28,017 nt of DNA from a virus: IMG/VR virus record IMGVR_UViG_3300037042_000775, positions 1-28,017 of that record. One strand, given 5' to 3'. The notes under the pieces are model-generated. The model worked only from the letters and a program-made list of their open reading frames with translations, ran no database searches and was not told the origin of the DNA. Both the position numbers and the translations under genes were made by a program. Every line of letters begins with the position of its first letter. Position 1 is the first letter of the stretch. Below are positions 1,745 through 26,843 of this stretch, piece by piece.

Positions 1745-2875
1745 TTACTCTGCGTACGCAGCATCAAACAGTGTAGCCAACACCGAGTCAACATCGTACT
1801 TACCCACCATATCCATAGCTGCCGATATGGCATCGTCGGTTATCCGCTTGCGGTCGATCAGCTTGATAGCCAAGTCCCTGTCTTCAGGGTACACACTCTC
1901 AGCAATCAGTTCAACGAGGTTGGTCTTGAACCCCTGCTCCGCATCAAGCAGACACTCAAGCAGGTACTCGTCGTCGTCAAGCGTATCTAACTTGTCCTCA
2001 TCGAACATTGTCTCCGTGCCCTTGGGGATGTTAGGCGCTGTCTTCCACCACGATGTGTGACAGAAGTCGTAGCTGTCCGTAATAGGTTCAGGCTCCACAA
2101 ACGTAGGGTCACGCTCGGTAGGCAGTCCATCCCAATCAATCGCTATCACCGCAGCCGCAAGCCTGTCGAAGTGCTCAATGTCCAACTCCTCACGCTCACT
2201 GTGCTCATGGTCGTAGCCACATGAGATATTCGTGCACTCGGGGATGATGTCAACGAACTCGGCTGTGTCCGTATACACGCCCGTATCATCAGGTGAGTAC
2301 ATGAATGCATCACAACTTGAATTAAACGCATCAGCCAGCCCTTGCGCAAAATCATCAGAGCAGCACCTACCCCACCCCTGATGGGAGATAACGCTGTCTG
2401 TGCCCCGCCTGTCGAACGCTATGGCCCTATTGAACTCAGCCAGTAGCTGTGGATACTCCCGCGCCAGATGCTTGGCACCAATACCCCCGACCTCCTCGCC
2501 TTGCGTGAACACATAGTACCCCGGCACACCAGCGTGCAGCAGGTGCATGAGCAGCGCACATCCCACGCCATCATCAGCACCCAGCGCAGCCCCGTCCGCA
2601 TACCACATCGTCTTGGTCTTGCGAATCTTGTTGGCCCCTGTTTTGCGGTGCACCGTATCGACGTGTGCTACGAACAGTGTCTTGTGATCGCTGTGCGTAC
2701 GATTGTCAACGTGCAAGTTACCCGCCACGTCGAGCCACACCCCGGCATACAGGTGAGCAGGCAAGTGGTCATACAGCCACTCGGTGAATACCAACACGGC
2801 CATCGTGTTGTGTGGGCGCATCATTGAGAGCGCACGGTTAAGCGTCTTGTAAAGCATTGTGTGTTTCTTATTCAT
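1745..2875 (-). CDS. M20/M28-like zinc metallopeptidase
   Basis: This is a 376-residue predicted co-catalytic metallopeptidase resembling M20 peptidases such as PepT and related M28/M42 enzymes. The expected ligand order is present: H71 and D73 in AHVDTVH, D101/D102 in GADDGVG, catalytic E127 and E128 in GEEVGG, D155 in FDRRG, and H223/H225 in YDHEHS. The catalytic domain fills about residues 25-250. The final 120 residues are an acidic, helical extension I do not recognise. No signal peptide is seen, so it should act in the cytoplasm on peptides or small amide substrates. ATG 2875 overlaps the upstream stop by 8 bases; ATG 2857 is an alternative start. Neither has a strong ribosome-binding site. 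Confidence 0.85.
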   Translation of the reverse strand: MNKKHTMLYKTLNRALSMMRPHNTMAVLVFTEWLYDHLPAHLYAGVWLDVAGNLHVDNRTHSDHKTLFVAHVDTVHRKTGANKIRKTKTMWYADGAALGADDGVGCALLMHLLHAGVPGYYVFTQGEEVGGIGAKHLAREYPQLLAEFNRAIAFDRRGTDSVISHQGWGRCCSDDFAQGLADAFNSSCDAFMYSPDDTGVYTDTAEFVDIIPECTNISCGYDHEHSEREELDIEHFDRLAAAVIAIDWDGLPTERDPTFVEPEPITDSYDFCHTSWWKTAPNIPKGTETMFDEDKLDTLDDDEYLLECLLDAEQGFKTNLVELIAESVYPEDRDLAIKLIDRKRITDDAISAAMDMVGKYDVDSVLATLFDAAYAE

Positions 2876-16023: not shown

Positions 16024-16935
16024 ATGGCTGTCTCACGCGCACAACTACTTAAAGAGCTACTCCCCGGACTGAATGGTCTGTTTGGTCTGGAGTACGCACG
16101 CTACGGCGAAGAGCACAAGGAAATCTATGTGGTGGAAACCTCAGAGCGTTCCTTTGAAGAAGAAACCAAACTGGCAGGCTTCGGTGCTGCACCAGTGAAG
16201 AACGAGGGTTCTGCCATTGCTTATGACAATGCGCAAGAAGCGTTCACCGCTAGGTACAACCACGAAACCATCGCTTTGGGCTTCGCAATCACGGAAGAAG
16301 CAATGGAAGATAACTTGTACGACTCACTGTCGGCTCGTTACACCAAAGGTCTCGCCCGTGCTATGGCCTACACCAAGCAGGTTAAAGCTGCTGCTGTACT
16401 GAACAACGGCTTTTCTTCCGGGTACACTGGTGGTGATGGCGTATCGTTGTTCTCTACTGCACACCCCTTGGTTAGTGGTGGCACCAACTCCAATCGTCCT
16501 TCCACAGCCGCTGACTTGAACGAGACTTCCTTGGAAGCTGCGGTCATTCAGATTGCTTTGTGGACCGATGAAAAGGGTCTGTTGATCGCTGCTAAGCCTA
16601 AGAAGCTGATTATCCCAACGGCTCTGATGTTCGTTGCTACTCGTTTGCTGGATACCAACCTCCGTGTTGGCACTACAGATAACGACATCAACGCCCTGAA
16701 GAACAACGGTTCCATCCCTGAAGGCTACTGTGTTAATCACTACTTGACCGACACAAACGGTTGGTATTTGACTACTGACGTGCCTGATGGTCTGAAACAC
16801 TTTGTACGTGTGGCTTTGGACACAAAAATGGATGGCGATTTCGATACTGGTAACGTCCGTTACAAGGCTCGTGAGCGTTATTCGTTCGGCTGGTCTGATC
16901 CATTGGGAATCTTTGGTTCACCCGGTTCGTCTTAA
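16024..16935 (+). CDS. Major capsid protein, Mu gpT-like
   Basis: A 303-residue HK97-fold major capsid protein resembling the Mu-like major head subunit gpT family. Supporting segments are FEEETKLAGFGAAPVKNEG (residues 44-62), TEEAMEDNLYD, AYTKQVKAAAVLNNGF (about 115-130), DGVSLFSTAHPLVSGGT and the C-terminal RYKARERYSFGWSDP. Length is usual for the family. AAGGAG precedes ATG 16024, and a strong terminator follows the stop, as expected for a gene that needs high, separate expression. Confidence 0.9.
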   Translation: MAVSRAQLLKELLPGLNGLFGLEYARYGEEHKEIYVVETSERSFEEETKLAGFGAAPVKNEGSAIAYDNAQEAFTARYNHETIALGFAITEEAMEDNLYDSLSARYTKGLARAMAYTKQVKAAAVLNNGFSSGYTGGDGVSLFSTAHPLVSGGTNSNRPSTAADLNETSLEAAVIQIALWTDEKGLLIAAKPKKLIIPTALMFVATRLLDTNLRVGTTDNDINALKNNGSIPEGYCVNHYLTDTNGWYLTTDVPDGLKHFVRVALDTKMDGDFDTGNVRYKARERYSFGWSDPLGIFGSPGSS

Positions 16936-17944: not shown

Positions 17945-18142
17945 ATGACTGAACACCATGACACCTTTAAAACAATACTCGACGGACTCTCAATCCTGAC
18001 GGTACTTGGCACACTCAACGAAATGCTCCCATCTATTGCTTCACTGTTCACTATTGTTTGGTTGGGGTTTCGGATTTGGGAGACAGATACAGTGCGTGGT
18101 TGGACAGGTCGCAGAGGAGTAATCCATGCCGTCAACGAGTAA
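17945..18142 (+). CDS. Holin-like small membrane protein
   Basis: A 65-residue protein with two likely transmembrane segments around residues 11-25 and 28-45 (ILDGLSILTVLGTLNEM and LPSIASLFTIVWLGFRIWE), followed by a charged tail. The pattern of a hydrophobic hairpin, a central LP, and a VWLGFRIWET end recalls class II holins of podovirus-like phages. Holins open the inner membrane at lysis. No endolysin or spanin gene is visible beside it, so the lysis role is likely but unproven. It overlaps the next gene by 17 bases. Confidence 0.55.
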   Translation: MTEHHDTFKTILDGLSILTVLGTLNEMLPSIASLFTIVWLGFRIWETDTVRGWTGRRGVIHAVNE

Positions 18143-18887
18143 AAAGCAACATAACTTCATGGCAGCGATTGCACACAGTCCTGCTTTTGCCAAGAAGGTA
18201 GGCATCCCACAATCCGTGGGGCAGGACTTTAACAAGGCTGACAAAGGCCGCAAATTCAAAGAAGGTGGTGATACTATGGCTACGAAAATGAACCCCGGTT
18301 TTATGGCAATGATGGCAAAGAAAAAAGGCAAAATGGCTGACGGCGGTATGCACATGATGCCAGATGGCAAAATGATGAAAAACTCCGCTATGAACAAAGG
18401 CGGCGGCGTTAAAAAAATGGCTATGGGCGGGATGTCCTCACCGGGGATGATGGACCCCGGTAGTCGTTTTGGTAACGGTCAAACCCCTCAAATGCCTCCT
18501 CAAGCATCTCCCCCAATGGGAGGTGCTGGATTATATGCACCAATGGGCACAGGAACTCAAGCTCAAGCTCAAGCTCAACCAGCAGCTATGAAGCGCGGTG
18601 GGACTGTTAAGAAAATGGCTACGGGTGGTATGACAAACATGAAAATGGCTGAAGGCGGGATGACATTTAAGAAAATGGCTATGGGTGGTACGGCAGTTAA
18701 AAAAATGGCTACGGGTGGTATGCCAGCCGCTTTAGCTAAACACGCTGCTAAACCTGCATCAACAGCCCACGCGGGACTCAAGGCGGGTGGTATGGCTAAA
18801 GGTGGCTCGTTCCGTGCTTCGGCTGATGGTATTGCACAGCGCGGCAAGACCCGTGCACAGCAGTTCAAAAGTGGAGGAAAATGCTAA
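18126..18887 (+). CDS. Lys/Gly/Met-rich repeat protein
   Basis: A 253-residue protein with AGGAG six bases before ATG 18126. Residues 4-45 (SKKQHNFMAAIAHSPAFAKK, then VGIPQSVGQDFNKADKGRKF) are a conserved segment found in many phage proteins. The rest is low complexity: (V/F)KKMA(M/T)GG(M/T) appears at about residues 95, 161, 181 and 191. An alternating QA run lies at 145-151. The C-terminus carries ADGIAQRGKTRAQQF. It is strongly positive and probably disordered, so binding to packaged DNA or membranes is conceivable but not shown. Confidence 0.7.
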   Translation: MPSTSKKQHNFMAAIAHSPAFAKKVGIPQSVGQDFNKADKGRKFKEGGDTMATKMNPGFMAMMAKKKGKMADGGMHMMPDGKMMKNSAMNKGGGVKKMAMGGMSSPGMMDPGSRFGNGQTPQMPPQASPPMGGAGLYAPMGTGTQAQAQAQPAAMKRGGTVKKMATGGMTNMKMAEGGMTFKKMAMGGTAVKKMATGGMPAALAKHAAKPASTAHAGLKAGGMAKGGSFRASADGIAQRGKTRAQQFKSGGKC

Positions 18888-19366
18888 TGGCTACCAATCG
18901 TATCGTTTCCAAAAAAGAGTTAGAGGCGTTCAGGGATAAATATGGCGCAGATAAAGAACTGCGCGACCTCCTGAACAAAGAGCGTGGGCTTGTTCGCCGC
19001 AAAGAGGCTAACCCGACACTGGGCGAAGCTAAGGATAAAGGGGCGCAAGAAGCTGCGGATGCTATCGACCCCGGTAGCAACATGATGTTCAAGGACGTTG
19101 CACGCAACCAGTACCGTGAAAGCGGTAAGGAAATGGTTGACAAGCAAGATGCTGAATCAGCAAGGGGTCGTTCTATGTCTGCATACGTACCCCGGCGCGA
19201 CCCCAATGCAGCCGCCCGTGCAATGCTTAGCAGAGGCGAAGGTGACGAAGCAGGTAGTGCAATGAAGCGCGGCGGTGCCGTTAAGAAAATGGCCAAAGGC
19301 GGTGCTGTACGTTCAGCTTCTCAACGTGCCGATGGTTGTGCACAACGCGGTAAAACTAGGGCTTAA
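18887..19366 (+). CDS. Unassigned charged protein with RGKTR end
   Basis: ATG 18887 overlaps the upstream TAA (TAATG) with GGAGG nine bases before it; ATG 18881 is too close to that site. The 159-residue product has a charged helical N-terminal half (SKKELEAFRDKYGADKELRD), a helical middle, then GGAVKKMAKGGAV and the C-terminal ADGCAQRGKTRA. The repeat unit and end motif are shared with the preceding gene, so the two probably share an origin or a partner. Function unknown. Confidence 0.7.
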   Translation: MATNRIVSKKELEAFRDKYGADKELRDLLNKERGLVRRKEANPTLGEAKDKGAQEAADAIDPGSNMMFKDVARNQYRESGKEMVDKQDAESARGRSMSAYVPRRDPNAAARAMLSRGEGDEAGSAMKRGGAVKKMAKGGAVRSASQRADGCAQRGKTRA

Positions 19367-19368
19367 AT

Positions 19369-19611
19369 ATGAAAGCAAGTCGCGGCATGGGGGACATCAA
19401 TCCTGACAAGATGCCGAAGAGTAAACGGCTGGCTAAAGGTGGGGGAGTGAATGCTGCAGGTAATTACACCAAACCAAGCCTTCGCAAGAAGACTGTGTCC
19501 CAAGTAAAAGCAGCAGCTACCCAAGGCACGGGCGCAGGGCAATGGAGCGCGAGGAAAGCGCAGTTGGTTGCGAAGAAATATAAAGCTTCTGGTGGAGGGT
19601 ACAGAGATTGA
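19369..19611 (+). CDS. Small basic protein, GQWSARKAQ type
   Basis: An 80-residue very basic protein starting MKASRGMGDINPDKMPKSKR and ending with GQWSARKAQLVAKKYKASGG and GYRD. The GQWSARKAQ...GGGY(R/K)D pattern occurs in a small family of unknown function found in phages and other DNA viruses. Glycine and lysine content suggests a largely extended, nucleic-acid-binding or virion-internal protein. The stop overlaps the next start. Confidence 0.7.
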   Translation: MKASRGMGDINPDKMPKSKRLAKGGGVNAAGNYTKPSLRKKTVSQVKAAATQGTGAGQWSARKAQLVAKKYKASGGGYRD

Positions 19612-19841
19612 AAGCCCCTCAGAAATCCCTGAAAGATTGGGGCGACCAGAAGTGGCGTACCAAGTCAGGGAAGCCTTCGTCTAAGACGGGGGAAAGGTAT
19701 CTTCCAGAGGCAGCAATCAAGTCTTTGTCTTCTGCAGAATATGCGGCTACGACTAAAGCAAAACGTGTTGGTAAAGCGGCGGGGAAACAATTTGTAGCCC
19801 AGCCAAAAGCAATTGCAAAGAAAACAGCGGGGTACAGGTAA
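19608..19841 (+). CDS. Small basic protein, QKWRTKSGK type
   Basis: A 77-residue protein starting at TTG 19608, overlapping the upstream TGA (TTGA). LKDWGDQKWRTKSGKPSSKT, GERYLPEAAIKSL, AATTKAKR and GKQFVAQPKAIAKKTAGYR belong to a small domain of unknown function seen in phages, some bacteria and giant viruses. It is very basic. The weak start suggests coupling to the previous gene. Confidence 0.7.
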   Translation: MKAPQKSLKDWGDQKWRTKSGKPSSKTGERYLPEAAIKSLSSAEYAATTKAKRVGKAAGKQFVAQPKAIAKKTAGYR

Positions 19842-20095
19842 TGGCTAAGTCACCAGCATGGCAACGCAAAGAAGGTAAAAACCCTGAAGGCGGTTTAAAC
19901 GCCAAGGGACGTGCGTCCTACAATAAAGCAAACCCCGGCAAGCCCGGCCTGAAGGCTCCGCAACCCGAAGGTGGCTCCCGTAAAGACTCCTTCTGTGCCC
20001 GAATGACGGGAATGAAGAAAAAGCTGACTTCTGAGAAGACAGCAAAAGACCCAAATTCACGGATCAACAAAAGCCTCAAGGCATGGAAGTGCTAA
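19841..20095 (+). CDS. Small basic protein, SFCARM type
   Basis: An 84-residue protein starting at ATG 19841 (TAATG overlap). WQRKEGKNPEGGLNAKGRAS, PEGGSRKDSFCARMTGMKKK and DPNSRINKSLKAWKC match a small conserved family of unknown function, widespread in phages and some eukaryotic viruses. Two cysteines (residues 52 and 84) flank the basic C-terminal part. With the two genes before it, it forms an overlapping trio of small basic proteins. Confidence 0.75.
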   Translation: MAKSPAWQRKEGKNPEGGLNAKGRASYNKANPGKPGLKAPQPEGGSRKDSFCARMTGMKKKLTSEKTAKDPNSRINKSLKAWKC

Positions 20096-20788
20096 ATGGC
20101 AGTCTCAGGAACCACAACTTTTAATCTGGACCTCACCGAGTTGGTAGAGGAAGCTTTCGAGCGTGCAGGTTCTGAGATGCGTTCGGGCTATGACCTGAAG
20201 ACAGCACGCAGGTCATTGAACCTGCTGTTTGCAGATTGGGCCAATCGCGGCGTGAACATGTGGACGTTTGAGCAAGGGTCGATCACGTTGATCCCCGGAC
20301 AAGCTACGTATGATCTACCGTCAGACACCGTTGACTTGCTTGAGCACGTGATCCGCACGGGGGCAGGGAGCGCGTCTACGCAGGCTGACCTTACCATCAC
20401 ACGTATCAGCGTCTCCACGTACGCTACGATCCCTAACAAGCTGCAACAAGCACGTCCTATTCAGGTTTGGGTTGAGCGCAGGCAAGAGACACCCCGAGTA
20501 ACGGTGTGGCCTATCCCAGACAACACCCAGACGTACACGTTCGTTTACTGGCGCATGCGCCGTATTGATGATGCAGGTACAGGCGTAAACACAATGGATG
20601 TGCCCTTCCGGTTCATCCCGTGCATGGTGGCAGGCTTGGCATACTACTTGGCACTTAAAGTGCCAAACGGGGTGCAAAGGCTTGATACGCTTAAAGCGCA
20701 GTACGATGAGGCTTGGCAGTTGGCAAGCGACGAAGACCGTGAAAAGGCGGCTATTCGTCTGGTGCCACGGCAGATGTTCATCAACTAA
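20096..20788 (+). CDS. Head-tail adaptor-like protein 1
   Basis: A 230-residue protein directly after the previous stop. ELVEEAFERAGSEMRSGYDL, the following TARRSLNLLFADWANRG and the C-terminal FIPCMVAGLAYYLALKVP pattern match adaptor proteins of podovirus-like phages, which form a ring below the portal. The helix-beta-helix order is as expected. It sits well downstream of the portal, unlike in many phages, but a second adaptor-like gene follows at 21643. Confidence 0.7.
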   Translation: MAVSGTTTFNLDLTELVEEAFERAGSEMRSGYDLKTARRSLNLLFADWANRGVNMWTFEQGSITLIPGQATYDLPSDTVDLLEHVIRTGAGSASTQADLTITRISVSTYATIPNKLQQARPIQVWVERRQETPRVTVWPIPDNTQTYTFVYWRMRRIDDAGTGVNTMDVPFRFIPCMVAGLAYYLALKVPNGVQRLDTLKAQYDEAWQLASDEDREKAAIRLVPRQMFIN

Positions 20789-20791
20789 GTC

Positions 20792-21178
20792 ATGGGAAAT
20801 AGGTTCGCATCAGGCAAGAACTCTATCGCCATGTGCGATAGGTGTGGCCAGCGTTACAAACTGACAGAACTGAAAAAGGAAGTCAAGAAGCAGCGCGTGT
20901 TTGATTTATTGGTGTGCCCTACGTGTTGGGACCCCGATCACCCGCAGCTTATGCTTGGCACCTTTCCAGTTGATGATCCGCAGGCAGTGCGTAACCCCCG
21001 TACTGACACGACATATGTTACATCTGGGCCTATGACGGACGGATACAATAGCGGCGGGTCTAGGGACATCCAGTGGGGCTGGAACCCGGTAGGCGGGGCT
21101 AGTCAGTTCGATGTTGCGTTGACACCCAACTACTTGGTTTCAATGGCAGAACTTGGTACAGTTACAGTTAATCTTTAA
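20792..21178 (+). CDS. Zinc-ribbon virion-region protein
   Basis: A 128-residue protein starting at ATG 20792. CDRCGQRYKLTELKKE and CPTCWDPDHPQLMLGTFPVD (residues 15-60) give a four-cysteine zinc ribbon (CxxC ... CxxC). This pattern is common in phage proteins between adaptor genes. After PVDDPQAVRNPR it turns to a flexible Gly/Ser/Asn region. It is probably a minor virion or tail-assembly protein. Confidence 0.7.
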   Translation: MGNRFASGKNSIAMCDRCGQRYKLTELKKEVKKQRVFDLLVCPTCWDPDHPQLMLGTFPVDDPQAVRNPRTDTTYVTSGPMTDGYNSGGSRDIQWGWNPVGGASQFDVALTPNYLVSMAELGTVTVNL

Positions 21179-21188
21179 GGAGCTAATC

Positions 21189-21377
21189 ATGGCGTATCCA
21201 CAATCAGCAGACGGAATTGCTAAAAAGGGTAGAACCGATGCAGCCGTTCGTGCTAATAGCGGCCCCGCAGTTGCAACTACCACGGGCGGCAAAGGCAGCA
21301 AGGGCGGCAAGACTAATGAAGAAATGATGAAGTTGGGCCGTAATATGGCTAAACTAGCCAATCAGAAACGAGGCTAA
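21189..21377 (+). CDS. 62-residue basic protein
   Basis: ATG 21189 with AAGGAG upstream is the start; the frame is open earlier but lacks a site there. The N-terminus MAYPQSADGIAKKGRTDAAV carries a variant of the ADGxAQRGKTR motif seen at the C-termini of the genes at 18126 and 18887. The rest is Gly/Lys-rich with a helical end (NEEMMKLGRNMAKLANQKRG). Function unknown. Confidence 0.65.
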   Translation: MAYPQSADGIAKKGRTDAAVRANSGPAVATTTGGKGSKGGKTNEEMMKLGRNMAKLANQKRG

Positions 21378-21379
21378 TC

Positions 21380-21646
21380 ATGGCAACACAAAGTATGAAA
21401 CGAATGGGCAAAGAAATTGGCCCAGCAAGTCTTTACGCAAAGCCACACACCATGTCTGGTAAGACGGTAGCGGTGGCTGAAAACCCCGGTAAAGCACCTA
21501 ACCGTAGTCGGGCAGACACGGTTGATATGAGTATTGGCAACATCAGTAAATCAGCAGGTAATGAGCCAACTAAGACTTCTGGTATCAAGATGCGCGGTAC
21601 GGGCGCAGCGACTAAAGGTCTGATGTCACGGGGTCCAATGGCATGA
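21380..21646 (+). CDS. 88-residue protein, RGTGAATKG end
   Basis: Starts at ATG 21380 just after the previous stop. The product is basic and Gly/Ser/Thr-rich, ending SGIKMRGTGAATKGLMSRGP and MA. That end recurs in small proteins of environmental phages. It is predicted to be mostly disordered. The ATGA overlap with the adaptor-like gene suggests coupled translation. Function unknown. Confidence 0.65.
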   Translation: MATQSMKRMGKEIGPASLYAKPHTMSGKTVAVAENPGKAPNRSRADTVDMSIGNISKSAGNEPTKTSGIKMRGTGAATKGLMSRGPMA

Positions 21647-22302
21647 ACTACGCTGCTCTAGTCACGGCAATCTCCACTTACACGGAGAACACCTTTCCGA
21701 CAACCGCGATGAACACGTTCATCACGCAGGCAGAGCAGCGCATTTTCAATACTGTTCAGTTCCCATCGTTGCGTAAAAATGTTACAGGCACTACGTCTGC
21801 AACTAACAAGTATCTGGCGTGTCCGGGAGACTTCCTTGCGGCCCACTCAATTGCTGCAATTGACCCGGTGACGGGTAATTACACGTACTTGTTGAACAAG
21901 GATGTGAACTTTATCCGCGAAGCGTACCCAAACCCCACAGCCACCGGAGCGCCTAAGTACTACGCACTGTTTGGTCCACAGTCTATTAATGAGCAGGAGT
22001 TGGTGTTTATTTTAGGCCCAACACCAAACGCTGTTTATAGCGTTGAGCTTCACTATTTTTACTACCCAGAGTCTATTACTACTACTGCGGGTGGTAACAC
22101 GTGGCTAGGGGACAATCTGGATTCAGTTCTCCTTTACGGGTCTTTAGTCGAAGCATACACGTACATGAAGGGCGAAGCGGACATGATGACGTTGTACGAT
22201 ACCAAGTACAAAGATGCACTGGCAATTGCTAAACGTCTGGGTGATGGTCTGGAACGTACTGACAGCTACCGTACGGGCCAAGTACGTGTAAGGGTTGAGT
22301 AA
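21643..22302 (+). CDS. Head-tail adaptor-like protein 2
   Basis: A 219-residue protein starting at ATG 21643 (ATGA overlap). LVTAISTYTENTFPTTAMNT, FITQAEQRIFNTVQFPSLRK and a central GDFLAAHSIAAIDP segment followed by LHYFYYPESITT match the SU10-type adaptor family, which joins portal and tail in short-tailed phages. C-terminal helices (GSLVEAYTYMKGEADMM) fit as well. It is stronger evidence for a podovirus-like tail than the first adaptor-like gene. Confidence 0.8.
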   Translation: MNYAALVTAISTYTENTFPTTAMNTFITQAEQRIFNTVQFPSLRKNVTGTTSATNKYLACPGDFLAAHSIAAIDPVTGNYTYLLNKDVNFIREAYPNPTATGAPKYYALFGPQSINEQELVFILGPTPNAVYSVELHYFYYPESITTTAGGNTWLGDNLDSVLLYGSLVEAYTYMKGEADMMTLYDTKYKDALAIAKRLGDGLERTDSYRTGQVRVRVE

Positions 22303-23474: not shown

Positions 23475-26400
23475 ATGGCAGATCGTTATTGGGTTGGCGG
23501 GGCAGGCACATGGAACACCACAGATACAACACACTGGTCTGCTAGTTCTGGCGGCGGTGCGGGTGCGAGTGCGCCTACATCTGCTGACAATGTGTTCTTT
23601 GACACGCTTTCAAATGCCACAGCTTATGCTGTCACTATTGGTTTGACTGCGGTTGCAGCTAACGCCGCAGACATCAGCATTGCAGGCCCATTGGTAGGCA
23701 ACGTCACAATTACAAGCGCAGCAACGTCAGTAATTAACTGCTACGGTAGCTGGCTCAATGCGGCAACAGGTGTGGCGTTTACCTCTACAGCTGGATCAAT
23801 TGTTAATTTCTTGGCTACTACCACAGGAAAAACAATAACGAATAATGGTGTTTCGTTAGGTAACTTAAATTTACGTTTTGATTCGGCAACGGGTGGATGG
23901 GAACTCGGAAGTGCCTTGACCCTAACAACCACTATCTCTGTCTTACAAGGTAGTTTTAGCACCAGTACATCGAGTTGGGGGTTAACTTGCGGGTCAATTG
24001 CTACAACAGGTACTGTAGTACGCTCAATCAGCCTCAATTCGTCTTTAGTTTCAATTACGGGTACTAGCCAAATTAATTTTGGCGCAACCACAAACTTGAC
24101 GTTCAACGCTGGCACTTCAAGTATTGTTTGCTCTACTACTACGTCTTCTTTTACTGGTGGTGGGCAGACCTTTTACAACGTATCGTATACCGCACTTGGT
24201 CAGATTTCTGCTTCAATTACAGGTGCAAACACATTCAATAACCTGACGTTTCCAGTTAAAACGGCTGTTTCAGTTGCGAACATAACCATTGCTGCCAATC
24301 AAATTGTAACTGGCACACTCACTATGGCAGGGAGTACTTATGCCGCCCGGTTTCAACTAGTCTCGGCTACTATTGGCACCCCCTTTACTTTTACCGCTGG
24401 CGCTGTAAGCCTTGCGTATGTTGATTTCAGGGATATTGTTGGCGCAGGTACAGCTACATGGACGGGAACAAGTATTGGCGACTGTTTAGGTAATACGAAT
24501 ATTACCTTTGATGCCCCTAAAACAGTATACCGAAATCTTGCAGGGGCGCAGCTTTGGGCAGCTAATGGATGGGCAGCGAGTTCTGGGGGCGCACCAGCAG
24601 TGGCTAGTTACCCACTACCGCAGGATACAGCGGTATTTGATGACGTAGGTGCTGCGGGTACGATTAGTTCGTGGGCAGCTAACACAGGGTCGGTAGACAT
24701 GTCTGCACGCACTCTGTCTTCGCCATTCACTGCCGTCAACACGCTCAGTGTCTATGGGAACTGGATTAACGGCACGGGAACCGTCCTGTCTGGCGCGGGA
24801 ACAATTAATTTTTTGGGTCGGTCATTACAGACCATAACACCAGCGGGGATTACATTTGGCAGCGGGATTACGGTTACTGCCTTTGGTGGCACAGTTAGGA
24901 TTGAGGCTGCGTTAACTGCTACTAGTACGCTTGTGTTAACAAATGGAACGCTTGACCTCAACGACTTCACGTTTACGACTACAACCTTAGTCTCAACAAA
25001 TTCAAATACGCGATCCATTGCTTTTGGCACTGGTGATATTACCGTGACAGCAAACGGAACAACTGTTGTATCTATGTCAATTGTAGCTGGCTTTAGCTAC
25101 ACGGGTACGCCTACCATTAATGCGACCTACTCAGGTTCAACTGGTACGAGAACATACACATTTGGAACTTCAGGGGTGCAAACTGAGTCTCAAGCCATAT
25201 CACTAAATGTAACGGCAGGGGGCGATGCCTTTACATTCACAAATGGAACTCGCATCAACAGCATCGACTTTACCGGGGCTTATACGGGACTTGCCACTTT
25301 TGGCACAGGGACATATCAATGTTACGGAGACTTTACTTTAAACAGTCTAATGACAATCACTGCGGGTGCTATTGGCATATCATTTAGCTCTACGTCTGTT
25401 ACCCCACGCACAATTACCTCCGCAGGACAAACACTGAACTTCGGGATACTTTTCAATGGTATAGGTGGAACTTGGCAGCTTCAAGATACCATGACCGTGG
25501 GCACCGCCTCTCTCACTACCCTTACCTCTGGGACGATTGACTTAAATAACCAAACACTAAGCACAGGGCTATTTACGAGCACTGGAGCACTTACACGCAC
25601 AATTGCGTTTGGTACGGGTAACATGACTTGCACGGGAGTAGGGCAAGTTTTTGCAGCCACTATCACATTAGGTATTACAGGGACTCCCTTAGTAAATGTA
25701 ACCAGTGCAGGTTCTACCCTTATTACAGTAATTCCGGGGCCACTCCTAGAAGCAAACGCTATCAGCTTTAACTTTACAGGTGGTACATACCCCCTGAACT
25801 TTTTAGGCTCATCTGGGAACGCAGCAAGAAGTGTAAACTTCACGGGCTTTGCTGGAACGTGGCTTGATATTGCAGGGACAACTATTTACGGTGACCTAAC
25901 GCTATCAAGCGGTATGGTGATTGACCCAAGCACCAGTACACTTACGTTTGCTTCTACCTCACCCACACCCCGCACGATTGAGTCCAGCGGCAATACGATG
26001 GACTTTCCGATAGCCTTCAACGGGGTCGGTGGGACTTGGCAACTTGTTGACCCTATGACGCTAAATGCTACCCGAACCATGACGCTGACAAATGGCACCT
26101 TGGATGCCAGTCTGGCGGGGTTTACTACGGGTGTGTTTTCCTCATCAAACAGTAATATTCGTAGCCTGATTGTTGGGTCTTATTCCTATACGATACTGGG
26201 TACGGGCACTTCTTGGAACGTAACCGACACCACTAACTTCACGCTAGTCGGGGGATCGTCCGCAAGTATCCTGATGGATTCCGCTGGCTCCAATACGTTT
26301 TCCGGGGGGTTAATTTCCGATGGAAGTGCATGGCCCACAGTACAGCAAAATAACACGGGGACGCTGACTATTGCTGGCGGCGGGACATTCTATGCAATTC

Positions 26401-26843
26401 AAGCCTTCATCGCCCCTAGCACCATCCTGTTTACGGGTGGGGCCAGCTACAGTGCTTTGTTTTACCAACTGGAAGGTTCTGCTGGCAATCTAATCACTAT
26501 TGGATCAACGTCCACTACCCCCACAACGCTTAGCAAACCCACGGCGTGGCTGATGGGCGTTAACAGTGTCGATGCGGGAAACAACACAGGGTTAACGTTC
26601 GGCGTTGGTGACGGGAATATTGACTACGTAAGTGCCAGCTACATTGATGGGCACATCAACACCACGTTTGATGCAGATTGCGCTGAGACAGCGACGAGTA
26701 CGGACATACTTACACCTAACGGCATCTATAAGGTTGTACTCGCAGCGGCATCTGCAACGGCTACAGATAGCACCACGCGAAGCACCCTCTGGAACATAAT
26801 TGACGACACCCAGATACCCGGCTGGACACCAATATCTACTTAA
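23475..26843 (+). CDS. Large beta-repeat fibre or adhesin-like protein
   Basis: A 1,122-residue Thr/Gly/Ser/Asn-rich protein. The N-terminus MADRYWVGGAGTWNTTDTTH and the following SADNVFFDT form a module common in phage and bacterial surface proteins. A related module, LAGAQLWAANGWAASSGG then LPQDTAVFDD, starts at about residue 355. Four diverged copies of a long unit with (F)NG(I/V)GGTWQL-like starts and (T)LTNGTLDL-like cores begin near residues 124, 458, 652 and 840. The sequence should form a beta-solenoid. There is no glycosidase motif that I can see. It is probably a host-binding fibre or virion surface protein. Confidence 0.8.
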   Translation: MADRYWVGGAGTWNTTDTTHWSASSGGGAGASAPTSADNVFFDTLSNATAYAVTIGLTAVAANAADISIAGPLVGNVTITSAATSVINCYGSWLNAATGVAFTSTAGSIVNFLATTTGKTITNNGVSLGNLNLRFDSATGGWELGSALTLTTTISVLQGSFSTSTSSWGLTCGSIATTGTVVRSISLNSSLVSITGTSQINFGATTNLTFNAGTSSIVCSTTTSSFTGGGQTFYNVSYTALGQISASITGANTFNNLTFPVKTAVSVANITIAANQIVTGTLTMAGSTYAARFQLVSATIGTPFTFTAGAVSLAYVDFRDIVGAGTATWTGTSIGDCLGNTNITFDAPKTVYRNLAGAQLWAANGWAASSGGAPAVASYPLPQDTAVFDDVGAAGTISSWAANTGSVDMSARTLSSPFTAVNTLSVYGNWINGTGTVLSGAGTINFLGRSLQTITPAGITFGSGITVTAFGGTVRIEAALTATSTLVLTNGTLDLNDFTFTTTTLVSTNSNTRSIAFGTGDITVTANGTTVVSMSIVAGFSYTGTPTINATYSGSTGTRTYTFGTSGVQTESQAISLNVTAGGDAFTFTNGTRINSIDFTGAYTGLATFGTGTYQCYGDFTLNSLMTITAGAIGISFSSTSVTPRTITSAGQTLNFGILFNGIGGTWQLQDTMTVGTASLTTLTSGTIDLNNQTLSTGLFTSTGALTRTIAFGTGNMTCTGVGQVFAATITLGITGTPLVNVTSAGSTLITVIPGPLLEANAISFNFTGGTYPLNFLGSSGNAARSVNFTGFAGTWLDIAGTTIYGDLTLSSGMVIDPSTSTLTFASTSPTPRTIESSGNTMDFPIAFNGVGGTWQLVDPMTLNATRTMTLTNGTLDASLAGFTTGVFSSSNSNIRSLIVGSYSYTILGTGTSWNVTDTTNFTLVGGSSASILMDSAGSNTFSGGLISDGSAWPTVQQNNTGTLTIAGGGTFYAIQAFIAPSTILFTGGASYSALFYQLEGSAGNLITIGSTSTTPTTLSKPTAWLMGVNSVDAGNNTGLTFGVGDGNIDYVSASYIDGHINTTFDADCAETATSTDILTPNGIYKVVLAAASATATDSTTRSTLWNIIDDTQIPGWTPIST

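Follow-up and report, generated by a model that had tools for sequence, protein, structure and literature searches.

Why should three otherwise different proteins, encoded close together in a viral genome, carry the same short peptide near one of their ends? The question is raised by a virus record of 28,017 bases (IMG/VR IMGVR_UViG_3300037042_000775; this whole stretch is called the window below), in which an initial annotation pointed out a motif shared by three genes, here termed genes 1 to 3. The motif, ADGxAx[RK]GKT, is a portable tag: it stands at fixed positions on proteins whose bodies are hypervariable, it is selected as a peptide, and nearly all of its occurrences belong to a single capsid clade and a single place in the genome. 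We give a probability of roughly one half to the reading that it is a virion-targeting tag on a hypervariable payload, resembling the targeting sequence of the phage T4 internal proteins but placed mostly at the other terminus.

Position and consensus of the tag

The three copies in the window (18822, 19328, 21207) lie, all in frame, in the stretches of small genes that flank the first tail-adaptor gene on both sides. A search of the six reading frames for ADG.A.[KR]G[KR]T gave three matches, whereas 300 codon-shuffled windows averaged 0.0, and a chance origin is thus rejected. The initial annotation had the motif ending the proteins of genes 1 and 2 and beginning that of gene 3. It does form the true C-terminus of gene 2, but in gene 1 the nine residues QQFKSGGKC follow ADGIAQRGKTRA and the copy is therefore sub-terminal, and in gene 3 it is near the N-terminus, though from residue 7. 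The KKMAxGG unit, described as recurring in the first two genes, does so in gene 1 (four copies, at 18411, 18609, 18669, and 18699) but is present only once in gene 2 (19283).

IMG/VR was scanned with a degenerate DNA pattern for ADGxAx[KR]GKT, which yielded at least 120 stretches, all of them used and many with two to five matches. These stretches, the window, the capsid-anchored loci described below, and three GTDB loci make up our protein set, searched with one strict expression. This expression is behind all counts except the 144 tags at distance 5 (an earlier expression), the 28 complete cassettes (a looser expression), and the statistics on the 206 C-class proteins (a looser set; the number is 206 under both). 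A looser expression also caught GAGLTAKGRA of the DUF6321 family and so produced false counts (seven of eight hits in the DSL-LC04 clade, see below). The strict set contains 313 non-redundant motif proteins with a stop codon, in 151 records. From the end of the motif to the C-terminus there are five residues in 184 of the 313 and two in 22, together 206 proteins that form the C-class. Another 82, the sub-terminal class, have 7–26 residues after the motif, and in 25, the N-class, it lies further upstream; 22 of these 25 start it at residue 7 and form one small family, that of gene 3, and mostly 44–48 residues follow.

A typical C-class protein ends in ...SASxRADG[IC]Ax[RK]GKT[RK]G[KR]M[VC]. Among the 144 distance-5 tags the D, the two core G's, and the T are invariant, K is found in 143, I (85) or C (58) occupies position 4, and most end in V (72) or C (37); a variant with H in place of K is recurrent. 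The last residues of the 206 C-class proteins are V (94), C (46), A (21), I (18), and L (11). In 204 of them GG occurs at most 14 residues upstream of the motif, and hence the KKGG-type unit that the initial annotation had noticed belongs to the usual linker of the tag. In the sub-terminal class the last residue is mostly a Cys or Lys, preceded by a GG unit.

Outside the virus records, a scan of genome contigs gave five records, which do not allow a host to be named, with tags in three contigs of uncultured bins (L122, L123, L125). A match in a Simplicispira contig, 81 residues from the stop, looks like chance and was set aside. In a Patulibacter contig from a metagenome-assembled genome (L126:1-220) the tag closes an open frame of 656 residues close to the contig end, which is perhaps chimeric. 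A tblastn search of cultured-phage records with the consensus tag and gene 3 found no match, although the low-complexity filter may hide the tag.

Mostly unrelated and rapidly replaced bodies

With the tag removed, the 303 bodies of at least 30 amino acids (aa) fall into 111 groups, 83 of them singletons, at E<1e-5; at E<1e-3 there are 84 groups with 67 singletons, one chained group comprising 183 bodies. That a common terminal tag sits on otherwise different proteins, as first proposed, is thus upheld far beyond the window. The counter-hypothesis named with it, that the motif is a piece of one larger domain with no positional preference, is ruled out by the fixed positions and the unrelated bodies.

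The portability is also seen within families. The DUF6321 protein has no tag in the window, but at least five other records have homologues of it with the same tag at the C-terminus. Relatives of gene 3 in genomes without the strict tag keep the C-terminal half (GRNMAKxANQ; GRNMAKLANQ in gene 3) and differ at the N-terminus. As separate observations, DUF6321 stands alone in the window, yet matches the C-terminal end of PHROG families of up to 928 aa, and it contains GGLNAKGRASY, which by eye is like the tag core; the two may be versions of one idea.

Turnover was compared in 52 records that have the capsid gene and a downstream adaptor or zinc-ribbon gene, a shared body being defined by E<1e-5. 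No tagged body was in common in 700 of 741 genome pairs with C-tagged proteins, at a median capsid identity of 0.86, and even where capsids are at least 93% identical, 9 of 14 pairs lacked a common C-tagged body. Repeated tagged proteins were kept in these figures; their removal, which favors the absence of a shared body, gives 558/595 and 7/11. In the smaller set of 595 pairs, the products of the neighboring DUF6321 gene and of the gene at 19608 have median identities of 0.73 and 0.77.

One clade and one genomic place

The tag-bearing genes belong to a plus-strand block with the order terminase (9051), portal (10611), GroES-like (13317), three genes without known function, major capsid (16024), small genes including DUF6321 (19841), SU10-type adaptor (20096), small genes, and second adaptor (21643). 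The same order of terminase, portal, GroES-like, capsid, small genes, and adaptors is found in DSL-LC04 (“Dishuiviridae”), and HTVC023P and CRP-902 are similar; the reference capsid proteins of the DSL-LC04 and HTVC023P clades are 63–64% identical to that of the window. Unlike the window, the fetched regions of DSL-LC04, HTVC023P, and CRP-902 had no tag.

Of the 120 loci selected by the tag, 117 hold core genes of the window's lineage, and the other three are stretches of at most 3.2 kb matching other window genes. To avoid circularity, loci were also chosen by the capsid instead of the tag, taking the best 80 of at least 600 candidates for each of the window's clade and the two sister clades. 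For the window's own clade the six loci that the tag scan had already found were excluded, leaving 74. Only loci with at least 3.5 kb downstream were considered, and the strict tag was present in 27 of 33 (out of the 74) in the window's clade, in 1 of 35 (out of 80) in the DSL-LC04 clade, and in 0 of 26 (out of 80) in the HTVC023P clade. In an overlapping set of 28 complete capsid-anchored cassettes, 23 had a match to the looser expression, and 51 of the 53 loose matches fell between the capsid and the second adaptor; in the other five cassettes degenerate forms can be made out by eye, for example SKDGVAVKGKTKGKMV or RADGCIRKGHTRGRKV. Similarly, in each of 14 records of 26–87 kb every exact match to the DNA pattern is confined to one stretch of at most 4.6 kb (two of the records have a single match).

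The sole tagged protein of the DSL-LC04 clade (L252) has an N-terminal part that by eye is like gene 2, and gene 2 has one tblastn match in the 80 loci of that clade, which suggests that body and tag were transferred together. A separate common C-terminal tag in the sister clades was considered and rejected, as the tail patterns that were enriched seemed to be those of homologous families. The DSL-LC04 clade has an RGMGxATRGG-type element, which 38 of 39 hits place at the N-terminus.

Selection on the peptide

Every available codon is used for the invariant residues in the 175 tags that have the RADG core, K being AAG in 88 and AAA in 87, and T being ACC in 82, ACT in 60, ACG in 17, and ACA in 16. 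As third codon positions vary, selection acts on the peptide. The synonymous third-position identity of tags is 0.49 within and 0.38 between genomes, where 0.39 is expected from composition; some recent copying of tags or a shared codon bias is likely, and DNA conservation is not the driver.

The genome may also influence the exact form of the tag. On non-homologous proteins of one genome (67 pairs), tags agree at position 6 in 0.57 versus 0.28 after shuffling and at the last residue in 0.54 versus 0.33 (0 of 2000 shuffles each), with weaker agreement at four other positions (4, 13, 27, and 83 of 2000 shuffles). Between two tags of one genome the identity is 0.80 (31 pairs); between genomes whose capsids are at least 93% identical it is 0.84 (57 pairs with non-homologous bodies), and it falls to 0.67–0.68 where capsids are more distant. 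Tags on homologous bodies from different genomes have an identity of 0.75. These values fit tags that are matched to their own genome, but the Mantel test given below lacks significance, and the close-range effect could be explained by shared ancestry, copying, or missed homology.

A possible link with the virion

Gene 1 begins with a module of about 43 residues, SKKQHNFM, that connects it to virion proteins of jumbo phages. Residues 1–43 are 72% identical to PHIKZ165.1 of phiKZ, and the N-terminus is 54% identical over 49 aa to gp322 of phage CBB. The module also heads GAP32_317, RaK2 ORF156, and CBB gp322, all annotated as virion structural proteins. Mass spectrometry of CBB virions detected CBB_322, for which Table 4 of the CBB paper (PMC5259590) gives 30 unique peptides and a coverage of 43.57%; its equation with gp322 rests on the matching numbers and the annotation. 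ORF156 was not found by number in the main text of the RaK2 paper. Thus the module is that of a virion protein in other phages, and gene 1 itself would by extension be a candidate virion protein. A virion role of the tag is indirectly supported by this module and by the near-confinement of tags to a single capsid clade, within its morphogenesis block.

The jumbo phages (phiKZ, CBB) have the SKKQH module alone or heading an unrelated larger virion protein, and the ADG tag, present in gene 1, was not seen in PHIKZ165.1, Eowyn 00244, RaK2 ORF156, or the two ends of GAP32_317. At E<=0.1 the module matches 124 phage records, an unusual conservation for such a tiny module across podovirus-like phage and the jumbo phage phiKZ.

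Comparison with known systems

The internal proteins of phage T4 (IPI, IPII, IPIII, and Alt) are described as small, basic, and highly diverse between related phages, with only a short targeting peptide in common (PMC9026906; PMC3012670). In IPIII the first 10 residues are the part required for incorporation, and the targeting sequence has been proposed as a possible evolutionary mechanism for incorporating various proteins (PMC9026906). The tagged proteins are similar in that a short common peptide, here with a presumed targeting role, is found on diverse small and basic proteins (median net charge +10 in the C-class). The peptide sequence and the phage lineage are unrelated to those of T4, and the peptide is not N-terminal as in T4 but C-terminal in 206 of 313, sub-terminal in 82, and further upstream in 25, of which 22 have it at residue 7. 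The tag system may therefore work like the T4 internal-protein family without being a member of it. An ADP-ribosyltransferase-like cargo in the contig L123 (4798–5214), which would have been an analog of Alt, was seen by eye only and was dropped, no such family being present in the Pfam and PHROG tallies of a protein set that included it.

Encapsulin cargo-loading peptides are short C-terminal motifs on non-homologous cargo that are read by the shell protein. A C-terminal motif on non-homologous proteins is likewise seen here. In contrast to encapsulins, the tag belongs to a tailed phage, one cassette of which encodes several tagged proteins, and binding to the shell is a supposition.

A putative loading signal and its alternatives

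Our favored explanation is that the peptide is a portable targeting tag. In this podovirus-like clade the cassette between the capsid and tail-adaptor genes encodes a few (usually one to four) small proteins that are rapidly replaced; most of them end in, and one family begins with, a basic tag of about 16 residues, usually after a KKGG-type linker. A conserved virion component of the same block, namely shell, scaffold, or portal, may read the tag, and the tagged proteins would be loaded into the head as cargo. Some of this cargo might leave the head together with the DNA and act in host takeover or counter-defence, changing fast in an arms race. A stronger version, which we hold only tentatively, is that the tag is a lineage-wide, mostly C-terminal “postcode” for an exchangeable injected payload, each protein being addressed to the head by one conserved peptide and a gene becoming cargo by gaining it, as DUF6321 would have done in at least five records.

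Several points weigh against the loading signal. The virion location is inferred, and the clade is known from uncultured sequence alone. The T4 targeting sequence is N-terminal, 10–19 residues long, and cleaved by gp21, whereas the tag is mostly C-terminal, about 16 residues long, and has no known cleavage. Six of the 33 capsid-anchored members of the window's clade lack the strict tag. Within-genome agreement of tags could partly be copying or shared ancestry, given the synonymous identities of 0.49 and 0.38, and there is no overall covariation of tag and capsid divergence (Mantel r 0.052, with 334 of 2000 permutations as high; 0.054 and 316 in another run). A scan of 100 proteins of the tagged set, 98 of which have the strict motif, recognized no domain of an effector or enzyme; Pfam gave DUF6321 in three, and four weak single matches.

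The alternative that survives best, though we think it rather improbable, is nucleic-acid binding: the basic, glycine-rich tag and the KKMAxGG units would bind packaged or host DNA, and the proteins would be DNA-condensing virion or early proteins with no protein reader. The positive charge of the C-class is in its favor, with medians of +4.3 per 100 aa for the bodies (192 bodies) and +10 for whole proteins. So is the fit of the core to the P-loop (Walker A) consensus GxxxxGKT, with K in 143 and T in all of the 144 distance-5 tags, as a bare loop might bind phosphate. However, the near-invariant D, G, A, G, K, and T and a C-terminal distance of mostly 5 or 2 go beyond what non-specific charge needs, and K is replaced by H in the recurrent variant. 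A P-loop NTPase domain as such was rejected, since the C-class chains stop five or two residues after the motif and no NTPase family was found in the 100 scanned proteins; we note the resemblance to the P-loop consensus and do not claim it as a function.

It is unlikely that the tag is a recombination or gene-capture device, where common ends would let phages swap cassette genes and the peptide itself would have little function. Bodies are indeed replaced while ends persist, and the synonymous identity is somewhat higher within genomes, but free third positions with a fixed peptide are the reverse of what DNA homology arms require, and the tags are in frame and at exact distances from the stop. 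Slightly less probable still is a structural docking role, the tagged proteins being minor head-vertex, connector, or decoration parts assembled on one hub near the adaptor. The tagged genes do directly precede the adaptor gene, and gene 3 lies between the adaptors; structural parts, however, would not be expected to be swapped for unrelated ones between phages with capsids at least 93% identical, as in the 9 of 14 pairs above. Least likely of all is that the tag marks proteins for degradation or processing, with a host protease (e.g., ClpX) or a phage protease recognizing the basic C-terminus and its final hydrophobic residue or Cys: the last residues of the C-class would suit it and a peptidase-family protein (phrog_4191) is encoded in the window, though in another gene block, but the N-terminal and sub-terminal classes expose different ends from the C-class, no dedicated prohead protease was recognized, and where the capsid protein matches phrog_133 (head maturation protease) and phrog_4523 (major head and protease), it does so in the C-terminal region of these long profiles.

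Should the tag prove to be a loading signal, any tagged gene could be called as virion cargo from its sequence, and phages without cultured members would then yield candidate proteins for host takeover or counter-defence by the hundreds. It would also be an independent example of the T4 internal-protein strategy and a possible loading handle in capsid engineering. Under the postcode version, effectors could be discovered by regular expression alone. Our literature search, with most subscription journals and all bioRxiv preprints outside its scope, found no published account of the tag, of a C-terminal motif on unrelated packaged proteins, or of relevant hypervariable internal head proteins.

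Features of the window

Table 1. Tag-bearing genes, tag copies, and neighboring features in the window.
Feature	Position	Strand	Remarks
Major capsid protein	16024–16935	+	phrog_371; anchor of the tagged clade
Gene 1	18126–18887	+	253 aa; SKKQHNFM module at the N-terminus, KKMAxGG four times, tag sub-terminal, last residue Cys
SKKQH module of gene 1	18126–18284	+	phrog_16759
Tag copy 1, ADGIAQRGKTRA	18822–18857	+	Sub-terminal class; nine residues after it
Gene 2	18887–19366	+	159-aa protein; tag at end; AlphaFold mostly low-confidence
KKMAKGG unit of gene 2	19283–19303	+	Single copy, directly upstream of the tag
Tag copy 2, ADGCAQRGKTRA	19328–19363	+	Exact C-terminus of the gene 2 protein
DUF6321 protein	19841–20095	+	PF19846; without tag in the window
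SU10-type tail adaptor	20096–20788	+	Far border of the main tag cassette; DSL-LC04 relative annotated “Pam1 adaptor protein”
Gene 3	21189–21377	+	62-aa protein; tag from residue 7
Tag copy 3, ADGIAKKGRT	21207–21236	+	N-terminal class
88-aa protein ending in SGIKMRGTGAATKGLMSRGPMA	21380–21646	+	Looser tag-like C-terminus, also given as RGTGAATKGLMSRGPMA
Second SU10-type adaptor	21643–22302	+	

The looser tag-like ending of the 88-aa protein recurs in its homologues within the window's clade and may be a second, looser tag. Its gene is found in 24 of 74 loci of the clade, many of which are cut short, and in 0 of 80 in each sister clade. The DUF6321 assignment passes the Pfam gathering cutoff with 71.1 bits against 28.5. 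In the AlphaFold model of gene 2 the mean predicted local distance difference test score (pLDDT) is 55.8 and about 50 in the tag region, based on a 7-row alignment and thus weak evidence of disorder; the capsid model, with a mean pLDDT of 40, is unusable. Sequence searches of the PDB with gene 1, DUF6321, the capsid, and the portal gave no significant relative.

Three further genes deserve mention. The peptidase-family protein (1745–2875, minus strand) matches phrog_4191 with E 1.7e-70 and lies outside the morphogenesis block. The 65-aa protein at 17945–18142, in which RIWETDTVRGWTGRR comes after a hydrophobic stretch, is holin-like by eye and has matches in 9 of the 74 clade loci. A protein of 1,122 aa (23475–26843), with no PHROG match at E 0.01 and a match in one of the 74 same-clade loci, many of them too short to reach it, is perhaps a hypervariable fibre or receptor-binding protein.

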